The notes beneath the pieces are model-generated. The model ran no database searches. It was not told where the DNA came from and was given only the letters and a program-made list of their open reading frames with translations. Positions 460 through 23,952 of a stretch of DNA of 64,000 nt are shown here, piece after piece. The position numbers and the translations under genes are program-made. Position 1 is the stretch's first letter, and each line of letters opens with the position of its first letter. The DNA is from Marinicella litoralis (GTDB lineage Bacteria; Pseudomonadota; Gammaproteobacteria; Xanthomonadales; Marinicellaceae): NCBI RefSeq assembly GCF_002591915.1, contig NZ_NIHB01000001.1:287805-351804 (forward strand). The letters run 5' to 3'.

Positions 460-3400
460 ATGAAAAAGTTCAAGTCATTACATTCACTGTGTCTGGTTTT
501 GATATTGAGTGTTGCCGCATCATCGGACTTCGATGAAGTGGGATTACCGCTCATCACGCATTTCAATCAAGAAGACTATAAAGCACATCATGCCAATTGG
601 GACATCCACCAAGCAAACAATGGCTTGATCTATATTGCCAACGGCAATGGAATATTGGTGTTTGATGGAGAGGAGTTTACACACCACTACTCACCAAATA
701 AAACCGGAGTCCGTGACATCGACTTAGTGGGTGATAAGGTCTATCTGGGAACCTTAAACAACATCGGATTTTTCCAACCTGCTGCCAACGGAGTGTTGGT
801 TTACCAGTCATTAAACCCATACTTGGCCCCAGAAAATCTGCCATTTGGGGAAATCTATTCTGTGGTTGCCTTTGCCGACAAGGTGGTGTTCAAAGCCATG
901 GCTTATTATTTCATTTGGGATGGTGAGACCTTAACCACCGTACCAGATGACTCCAACAGTTATACCAAAACCATCCCTGTTAATGACCGCCTTTATACCA
1001 AACTGTTGAACGATGAACATGTGTATGAACTGGACTTTAATTCAGAGAAACTGTTAAAAGACACACCCTGGAGGTTACCTCTAAAGTCTCAAGTCAAAGG
1101 TATTGAGTTAAATGCTGAAAATGAACTTATATTTTTCACAGCACACCATGGTATTTATAAACAACATGGCGATGAATTGCTCAAGGTACAAGACCAGCTG
1201 AATGAGCCGGTTTTTATTTATGATGTCACCAAGTCAAAAAAAGGCCTGTTTTATGTTGCTACCATCAATGGTGGGTTGTTTATCTTATCCAATGACTTAG
1301 AAGTTTTAAAAAATTATAAAGACATCCATGGACTTAAAATCAGTCAAGTAAGCGGTGTCTTGCAGGATCAACAAAATAACATTTGGACCGTTGGTTACAA
1401 TGGACTAAACGTAATGCGCCCACCAGATGAAATCAGCACTTTTGCCAAGGCGAATAACATGTATGCATTCGGGTTTGCTGATATACAAGGTGAGCCAAGC
1501 TTCTTGGGTAAGAGGGTGTTGCAGTTACATGCAGATGAAGAAAACCCTTTATACCCACCCTCTTTTCAGCCCATTGGCGAGATTGAGGGGGTGCGTGACA
1601 GTTTGGACTTTCAAGACCGGACTTTTCTTTGCACCAACAATGGGCTGTACCTGATTAAAGTTGAAAACCACAGAATCACCGAAAAGCAGTTGGTTTTCGA
1701 TGAAAGTAAATATATTTTTGACATCGCTATATCGGATGACTCAAAGCATGTGTTTGTTTCTACCAATTTGGGGGTTTATCAAATTCAAGAAATAAGCAAT
1801 GAATGGCACAGTGAAGCGATTCAAGGATTGGCATTTGAATTGAATAACATTGAAGTTGAAAACAACAAGGCTTTGTGGGTAGGCAGTCGAACAGGAGAGC
1901 TATTCAGGCTGGCTTTAGATGGAATCAACACCCCCACCCAATCGCTGATGAAGTTTACAGAAAAAGACGGCTTAAGCACTGACCTGGTGATACCCTTTAA
2001 ATTATCCAGTGGTTTGGTTTTTGGTACCCGTGATGGCACCATGCGATACTTTGAAGAGGATAATAAACTGTTGCTTGATGAGCGATTGCCAGACATTTTA
2101 CGACGCCAAAACATGGCCGTGGAAATGTTGTACGAAGACCAAAACCAATACATTTGGTACACCACTGATGAACAGCAGGGGTACATCAATAAAACAGCAA
2201 ACAAGTGGCAGCATAACACGGTATTGTTTAATTATTTTCCTCCCCGGTTTAACAGAAATTACCTCAGTGTGAAGGACCATATACTTTGGTTCATGCAAAC
2301 GGGTGGTGACATTTTTCGCATGGACGTCAATGCCACGAAAAAACTGCCTGATGTGGCACCTTTGTATATCCGCGAGTTGATAAACAGCAATACCGGTAAT
2401 ACCATACAAGCAGGGGTTGTCACCGACATCAAAACGCCCATTGATTTTTCATCAAACTCGATTCGAATTAAATATGCATTGGCTGACTATGCCACGCCAC
2501 ATCGAGCCATGTATAGGACCAAACTCAACGGGACACAAAATTCACAGTGGAGTGCTTGGTCAAATGAAACTTATAAAGACTTCACCGAACTCAGGGGCAA
2601 GGATTACAGGTTGGAGGTACAAGCCAAGGATGTATTTGGTCGCATTACACCCAGCACAGATTTGGCTTTCACCGTCCTACCTCCTGTTTATTTAAGCAAG
2701 ACTGCATTGGTAGCCTATGTTGTATTGGGTCTGTTGTTTCTGTGGTTGGCGACCTGGGCAGTGATAAAAAGCAGGACCAAAAAACTCAAAATGGAAAACC
2801 AGCGGCTCGATGAGCTGGTGAAAAACAAAACCCAGTTTTTGCACAGTAAAGCCATGGACTTGGAATTGTTGCACAAAGCCAAAGATCGGTTCATGACCGA
2901 CTTTTCACATGAATTAAGAACCCCTTTGTCTTTGATCATGGCACCAATAGAACAAGTCAAATCCAAACAACCCCACCACATGCTCGATGTGGCCATGAAA
3001 AATGCAGAAAAGCTCAGGGGTCAAATCAATCGCATCTTTGACTTACAACACCTCAATGATCCTGTAATCAAACTAAAGCAAACACATCTTGACCTCGTTG
3101 TTATCACTGCTCAGGTGGTTGACGAGTTTCAAGCATGGGCCACAAAACACCAACAAACATTGACGTTCGAGTGCCCAACCCAGTCGCACATGACCTTGTT
3201 TGACAAAGAAAAAATACAGGCAGTGCTGAGCAACCTCATCAGCAATGCCATCAAGTACAGTGGTGTCGGTTCACACATCTGGGTTGACATAGAATCCAAG
3301 GGATCAACAATTCAAGTGAATGTGATTGATGATGGCCCGGGCATTTCGTTGGCAAAAAAAGACCAAGTGTTCGAACGTTTTGTCACAGATGATAGCCTCA

Positions 3401-22953: not shown

Positions 22954-23808
22954 TTAGGCAACCATTTGAGTTTTTAGTTTTTTCAAAGCAACCGCCTCTA
23001 ACTGTCTGATGCGTTCAGCAGACACTTCGTATTTGGCAGCCAATTCTTGCAAAGTGGCTTTTTTATCAACCAACCAACGGCTTTGAATGATGTCCAAGGA
23101 GCGCTCATCCAGCTTATCTAATCCTTTGAACAAAGCATTGTGGTGTTTGTCCGCTTCTGTTTCTTTGATTAAGGTGGCTTCAGGTGTTGGGTTGGCATTA
23201 GTCAACCAAGCTTGTGGTGAATAACTGCTGTCCTCATCATCATCTGAAGGCAAGTCAAAAGAAACGTCCTGGCCATGTAATCGAGATTCCATTTCTACCA
23301 CCACTTCTGGGCTGACATCCAAGTCCTTGGCAACACGATTAACTTCTTCTTGAGTAAACCATCCCAAGCGTTTTTTGTTTTTTCTTAAGTTGAAAAACAG
23401 TTTGCGGTGGGCTTTGGTGGTCGCCACTTTTAAAATCCGCCAGTTTTTCAAAATATATTCATGAATTTCTGCGCGAATCCAATGCACAGCAAATGAGACC
23501 AGGCGGACTTTGTGGACTGAATCAAAGCGCTTGATGGCTTTCATTAAACCAATGTTGCCTTCCTGGATCAAATCTCCAACAGGCAAGCCATAGCCGGAAT
23601 AGCCTTTGGCCACATACACCACGAATCGCAGGTGAGACATCACCAAGGCGTGGGCGGCGTCCAAGTCATTGTGGTCACGCACACGGTCAGCCAAAGAACG
23701 TTCTTCTTCAACAGAAAGCACGGGGATTTGATTGACGGAGCTGATGTAAGACTCTAACGAGCCTGCCACAGAGGGAACTGGTAATTTTTTAATTGTATTT
23801 ACGGTCAT
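22954..23808 (-). CDS. rpoH: RNA polymerase heat-shock sigma factor RpoH (sigma-32)
   Basis: 284 residues, the usual length. Region 2 contains 'DLIQEGNIGLMKAIKRFD' and 'VRLVSFAVHWIRAEIHEY'. The RpoH-specific box HRKLFFNLRK is at residues 134-143 (E. coli QRKLFFNLRK), which separates it from RpoD and RpoS. Region 4 helix-turn-helix is 'LAAKYEVSAERIRQLEAVALKKL'. The ATG follows a TTGGAG ribosome site. A sigma-70 promoter and a structured leader of about 110 nt lie upstream. It should drive groESL at 15.7 kb. Confidence 0.98.
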   Translation of the reverse strand: MTVNTIKKLPVPSVAGSLESYISSVNQIPVLSVEEERSLADRVRDHNDLDAAHALVMSHLRFVVYVAKGYSGYGLPVGDLIQEGNIGLMKAIKRFDSVHKVRLVSFAVHWIRAEIHEYILKNWRILKVATTKAHRKLFFNLRKNKKRLGWFTQEEVNRVAKDLDVSPEVVVEMESRLHGQDVSFDLPSDDDEDSSYSPQAWLTNANPTPEATLIKETEADKHHNALFKGLDKLDERSLDIIQSRWLVDKKATLQELAAKYEVSAERIRQLEAVALKKLKTQMVA

Positions 23809-23825
23809 TTTTTTTCTCCAATCTT

Positions 23826-23917
23826 ACATGGCTCAATAGCCCATGTGATAAGAAAGTTAAGATGCTGTGTTTGACAGTACAGTCATCCGGTTAGTTCCGT
23901 CCTCTATTGAGCAACGG
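23826..23917 (-). promoter_or_regulatory. Structured rpoH leader RNA with complementary hairpin loops
   Basis: In mRNA sense the leader starts with a hairpin closed by CCGT/ACGG (plus 23917-23914 and 23900-23897) whose loop carries GCTCAATAG (23912-23904). A second hairpin closed by ACATGG/CCATGT (23846-23841 and 23831-23826) carries CTATTGAG in its loop. The nine bases GCTCAATAG and CTATTGAGC (23839-23831) are perfectly complementary, so the loops can kiss or the second hairpin can be replaced by long-range pairing. The second hairpin ends about 10 bases before the GGAG ribosome site. Translational control by temperature or another signal is inferred. Confidence 0.5.
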
Positions 23918-23924
23918 GAGGAGG

Positions 23925-23952
23925 ATTATAACATTTCAAATAATGAAGTCAA
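23925..23952 (-). promoter_or_regulatory. Sigma-70 promoter of rpoH
   Basis: On the minus strand TTGACT (23952-23947), a 16-bp spacer, then TATAAT (23930-23925). Both boxes are near consensus. The predicted start is about 23918, giving a leader of about 110 nt. Confidence 0.7.

Follow-up and report, generated by a model that had tools for sequence, protein, structure and literature searches.

The rpoH locus and its leader

The window (the whole 64,000-nucleotide stretch of Marinicella litoralis DNA that was analysed) carries rpoH, the gene for sigma32 (284 aa), on the minus strand at 22954-23808. It is preceded on the same strand by a sigma70-type promoter (23925-23952), TTGACT-16-TATAAT with a TG ahead of the -10 box, which matches the consensus at 11 of 12 positions; the first-pass annotation of this DNA had called it near-consensus. 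Transcription is predicted to start at about 23918, which is the 5' end of the first hairpin of the leader in all three genera, and a -10-like hexamer is found at about the same spacing from that hairpin in congeners and in two other genera. In genus g3 (loci L017-L026), about 100-150 nt upstream of rpoH, we also observed a conserved TTTTGAACTATTG ... TGTC[T/C]TA block overlapping TATATAAT; the TTTTGAACTATTG block looks like a second promoter, of the sigmaE type, beside that of the sigma70 type. In E. coli, too, rpoH has a sigmaE promoter.

The rpoH 5' UTR in the M. litoralis window is about 110 nt long and lies on the minus strand, as do all its features given below. The leader of this length with two hairpins that had been described earlier is recovered, both hairpins being present in the predicted fold. 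Hairpin 1 (23918-23896), CCGUU-G-CUC-AAUA-GAG-GACGG, consists of a stem with a U.G wobble, a bulged G at 23912, three base pairs and a tetraloop. Its UUGCU/AGGA core, with the AGGA arm at 23903-23900, is the same as in ROSE elements. Hairpin 2 (23847-23825), ACAUG-G-GCU-AUUG-AGC-CAUGU, is built of a stem, a bulged G at 23841, three base pairs and a tetraloop, and it adjoins the ribosome site. The Shine-Dalgarno sequence is GGAG at 23816-23819, a position kept in relatives, and the gap between it and hairpin 2 is about 6 nt rather than the 10 nt or so of the earlier description. An outer extension of hairpin 2 (23815-23855) is predicted to pair with this GGAG in the folds of most congeners, its covariation being weakly tested.

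Between the two lies a third hairpin (23887-23861) that the earlier description lacked. This middle hairpin is confined to the genus of the window and has compensatory changes in its stem. Its loop contains a conserved GUC[A/U]AA (23870-23875) that is kept in nearly all congeners, and genus g3, where the stem of the middle hairpin is missing, often keeps a similar single-stranded UC[A/U]AACACA or UUAACACA. An upstream reading frame beyond hairpin 1, with GGAGGA followed by an NTG within the middle hairpin, was considered by eye and rejected; frames and stops vary among congeners, and there is no start codon at that place in g3 and g4. In the energy model the full leader is more stable than its shuffles (z = -2.0), and in one fold of the leader together with about 215 nt of the coding region hairpins 1 and 2 stay local structures.

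Conservation of the leader and complementarity of its loops

Orthologous rpoH loci were gathered from the same genus and family and their leaders were compared. Hairpin 1 is invariant over CCGTTGCTCA....GAGGACGGAACT among the 16 congeners, 26 bases at the predicted transcription start are nearly invariant in the genus, and the hairpin 1 core, GTTGCTCNNNNGAGGAC, has its sole mismatch-free site of the genome in the rpoH leader. Such a block of invariant bases at a predicted start would also be expected if hairpin 1 were a DNA operator overlapping the transcription start, but the bulged G puts the half-sites out of register, hairpin 2 has the same shape near the ribosome site, wobble pairs are kept, and there is only one such site in the genome. 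We consider a DNA operator highly improbable.

The middle hairpin and hairpin 2 differ in sequence among congeners, with compensatory changes. In the genus alignment 95.2% of their cells are paired and nine pairs have changed on both sides, a result that 0 of 500 shuffles reach, and the covariation score is 0.213 compared to 0.03-0.082 for slid partners. For hairpin 2 with its outer extension, compensatory changes are seen in the genus at six of ten pairs; the bulge of hairpin 2 is a G throughout the genus while the adjacent pair switches from G-C to A-U. Between genera, compensatory changes occur at six of the eight pairs of hairpin 1 and at seven of eight in hairpin 2, counts that come from structure-guided alignments biased toward structure, with much lower values for the slid controls even so. 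A covariance model built on the entire leader gave a single match in each of 17 genomes out of the 18 of the genus (one of these matches, in G014, is partial and lies at a contig end) and none among the sampled genomes from elsewhere in the order. The leader of rpoH is a real, conserved, structured RNA.

No published description of such an rpoH leader was found in the literature search, and the structured leader is apparently previously undescribed. Rfam models at the gathering threshold gave no match to it; a freshwater-2 match in the leader was at chance level only and was discarded. Some of the gathered loci deserve separate mention. In G018 (L179, L180, L215), a genome assigned to the same family, there are two distant rpoH genes (36-39% identity) and the ibpA is rather different; this genome may be misplaced or chimeric. 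At L181 (G028, contig C17) rpoH is in two separate fragments in the draft genome, with the leader intact and of the g3 type.

The first-pass annotation had proposed a kissing complex between the two hairpin loops, or a switch in which hairpin 2 is dissolved by hairpin 1, on the basis of a perfect match of nine bases. The match itself is exact in the window genome, where GCUCAAUAG (23912-23904) is complementary to CUAUUGAGC (23839-23831) over all 9 nt. Its placement in the loops holds for the unpaired tetraloops, AAUA and AUUG, but most of the complementary letters lie in the upper stems. Among the 16 congeners, a Watson-Crick run of nine between the two apical regions occurs in the window genome only; the run is seven in one congener and three to five in the remaining ones, and the loops of both hairpins differ freely between species. 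Own pairs have a mean duplex energy of -5.89 kcal/mol and cross-species pairs one of -6.03 kcal/mol; out of 10000 permutations, 6487 were at least as strong as the own hairpin 1 and 2 pairs. With the 9-nt match lost in 15 congeners and own pairs no stronger than others, the loop complementarity is not conserved among the 16 congeners, an outcome which the annotation had itself named in advance as speaking against its proposal. As far as these sequence comparisons go, kissing loops are refuted as a conserved mechanism and the loop-to-loop pairing appears to be an accident of the window's genome; the chance that it acts as proposed is close to negligible. The suggestion of an undescribed rpoH switch survives in that a conserved structured leader, apparently undescribed, does exist, and fails in its kissing or switching mechanism.

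The bulged-G hairpin in rpoH and ibpA leaders

Both outer hairpins of the rpoH leader are versions of one module. In each, a lower stem of about 5-6 bp, often ending in a U.G wobble, is followed by a bulged G; above the bulge come 3-4 bp and then a loop, in most cases of 4-6 nt. Because the two hairpins are versions of one module and have similar upper stems, their loops are partially complementary. Two bulged-G hairpins are present in all 29 rpoH leaders of the family compared to 3 of 105 rpoH upstream regions elsewhere, and in 1% of dinucleotide shuffles; the family leaders rarely have hairpins in which the bulged base is A, C or U. When only stable hairpins were counted (at or below -4 kcal/mol, near the minimum), at least one was found in 29/29 family rpoH leaders and two in 24/29. 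The corresponding values are 5/78 and none for other gamma- and beta-proteobacterial rpoH genes, and 1/46 and none for other open reading frames of the window. The ROSE-like core U[U/C](G)C[C/U] is seen in 25/29 rpoH leaders and 13/25 ibpA leaders of the family, and in none of the other window open reading frames or the other gamma- and beta-proteobacterial rpoH genes. The scan did not find a pair of bulged-G hairpins in the E. coli rpoH upstream region.

The leader of ibpA, which is the sole Hsp20 gene of the window's genome, holds three bulged-G hairpins. The third is a canonical ROSE hairpin, with UUGCU against AGGAG and including the start codon; hairpins I and II, upstream of it, are the same module as in rpoH. 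This three-hairpin layout is repeated in the ibpA leaders of the family, where at least one stable bulged-G hairpin is present in 23/25 and two in 15/25. At the ibpA locus L186 (Hsp20 ORF 1435-1908, minus strand) the canonical ROSE hairpin is undetected by Rfam models, and the leader is preceded by a CTTGAAA box resembling the -35 of sigma32 promoters.

As an independent test of the likeness, we used a covariance model, R3, that was trained on ibpA hairpins only. With filters off, hairpins 1 and 2 of rpoH rank first and second on both strands of the 64-kb window, with scores of 16.6 and 15.3 bits compared to 14.6 for the next match and with marginal E-values of 0.03 and 0.09; with default filters the rpoH hairpins of the window are not reported. 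The same model finds hairpin 2 in 8 of 10 g3 rpoH loci (E 0.0008-0.006), and its best E-value over 28 rpoH loci of other lineages is 0.25. A second model, R2, was built from both sets. In the window's whole genome its matches at E of at most 5 are the two hairpins of rpoH and hairpin I of ibpA and no others, but R2 is partly trained on rpoH hairpins, and the first step of the whole-genome scan was loose and missed at least one 20-bit coding match that was later seen in the window, so that the result "only rpoH and ibpA" is not exhaustive. The R2 matches outside rpoH and ibpA that were inspected as possible leaders were rejected; each lies within a reading frame or antisense to one, or lacks an evident gene start just downstream. 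In E. coli ibpA one bulged-G hairpin was found in the scan, but R3 gives it no score above chance, and we therefore make no claim of the module for E. coli ibpA.

Judged by these sequence comparisons, our main finding is that the rpoH and ibpA leaders of the family share one hairpin module, and this suggests that one sensor controls both genes.

Possible roles of heat and IbpA in the control of sigma32 synthesis

The leader could be an intrinsic RNA thermometer which, in the manner of ROSE elements, would itself melt as the temperature rises and free the ribosome site. The UUGCU/AGGA core of ROSE is present in hairpin 1, together with a bulged G and a U.G wobble, the latter two features being present in hairpin 1 of nearly all family members and in hairpin 2 of many; folds predicted for the genus have the Shine-Dalgarno sequence paired with the outer part of hairpin 2; and the ibpA leader of the same genome ends in a canonical ROSE hairpin. 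However, ROSE elements are defined by U(U/C)GCU paired against the gene's own Shine-Dalgarno sequence (PMC3669281, PMC12857270), and the UUGCU of rpoH hairpin 1 is about 100 nt away from the rpoH Shine-Dalgarno sequence (23819-23816) and pairs with another AGGA (23903-23900). In the energy model the ribosome site of rpoH opens with heat no more than in shuffled leaders. The computed exposure of the Shine-Dalgarno sequence in this genus rises from 0.26 at 20 C to 0.40 at 55 C compared to 0.32 to 0.40 for the shuffles; the g3 value is 0.52 even at 20 C. For some g3 species the predicted folds pair the UUGCU arm with the Shine-Dalgarno sequence of rpoH; by eye this pairing is inconsistent across species and it was set aside. 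There was also no Rfam ROSE match in the rpoH leader, a weak test since the ROSE-type ibpA leader of the same genome is equally undetected. Since the pairing that defines ROSE is not found and exposure is no greater than in shuffles, we describe the leader as having ROSE-like parts and do not class it as ROSE, and an intrinsic thermometer seems unlikely.

The likeness to ROSE-like thermometers of ibpA and hspA leaders thus lies in two to four hairpins before a heat-shock gene and in a UUGCU/AGGA core with bulged G and U.G wobble, as in rpoH hairpin 1. The differences are that the gene here is rpoH, that the AGGA partner of UUGCU is far from the ribosome site, and that this ribosome site has no computed heat response. 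The E. coli rpoH thermosensor, which takes in up to 229 nt of the coding region (PMC4166951), is likewise a structured RNA at rpoH that may control sigma32 translation, but the present leader lies wholly in the 5' UTR and is shaped differently, a difference that the first-pass annotation had pointed out correctly.

An arrangement with no regulated switch, in which hairpin 1 shields the 5' end from decay and hairpin 2 keeps the ribosome site open, would fit the start of hairpin 1 at the predicted transcription start in all three genera and the g3 ribosome site that is predicted to be about half open. Protection alone leaves unexplained why hairpin 1 is invariant, why both hairpins keep a bulged G and why ibpA leaders carry the module, and we regard this arrangement as quite improbable.

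The module that rpoH shares with ibpA may point to a regulatory protein. IbpA binds its own 5' UTR through R93, across gamma-proteobacteria, and the RNA feature that it recognises is described no further than as structured RNA, with thermometers as an example (PMC10474464). E. coli IbpA represses the translation of ibpA and sigma32, according to the same source (PMC10474464). Equivalents of R93, R97, R/K98 and Y34 are present in all 25 IbpA proteins of the family, while E. coli IbpB does not have the R93 cluster. The two genes that carry the module are the pair that IbpA controls in E. coli, and from this we infer that the bulged-G hairpin is an operator, a protein-binding site whose occupation would block translation, and that IbpA is its likely reader. 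The E. coli case thus has the same genes, and the RNA-binding arginine and tyrosine are conserved in the family IbpA; what differs here is a defined bulged-G hairpin common to both leaders, to which IbpA would bind. E. coli rpoH, a reported IbpA target, is without the hairpin pair, and therefore IbpA cannot need the module in every species.

The shared module could equally serve another RNA-binding protein. A site for some other protein, or for a small RNA, controlling ibpA and rpoH would draw on the same evidence of sharing between the two genes; the strict invariance of hairpin 1 in the genus suggests sequence-specific recognition, and the conserved GUC[A/U]AA loop of the middle hairpin has no known partner. 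No candidate for such a regulator came to light, though, and the 16S and 23S rRNA of the genome contain no mimic of the same core (rRNA mimicry was rejected accordingly, one unrelated bulged-G hairpin being seen in 16S). Another regulator of this kind appears rather unlikely.

The reading that we favour, at slightly under even confidence, is that the leaders of rpoH and ibpA share a translational operator whose most likely binding protein is IbpA. The rpoH leader would then be a translational-control RNA made from two copies of the bulged-G hairpin, one at the mRNA 5' end and one beside or over the ribosome site. IbpA, or hetero-oligomers containing IbpA, would bind both hairpins when not engaged with aggregated protein; with both occupied, the ribosome site would be held closed and little sigma32 would be made. 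Unfolded protein would titrate IbpA away, and the rpoH and ibpA mRNAs would be translated together. Phage coat-protein operators are hairpins with a bulged base beside a ribosome site. The candidate operator resembles them in its shortness, its single bulged purine and its place near a ribosome site, but it is unrelated to them by sequence or gene and the analogy is mechanistic only.

More tentatively still, the bulged-G hairpin may be a two-gene code by which one chaperone-type RNA-binding protein reads the ibpA and rpoH mRNAs. Sigma32 would then be controlled by aggregate sensing at a defined operator in the 5' UTR, in place of the E. coli coding-region thermosensor; we hold this to be possible, with doubt outweighing confidence. 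The rpoH/ibpA hairpin, which covaries in about 30 species of one bacterial family, gives a concrete candidate recognition element for the choice of mRNAs by IbpA. If the proposal is true, the family would have a second, UTR-only route to control sigma32 synthesis.
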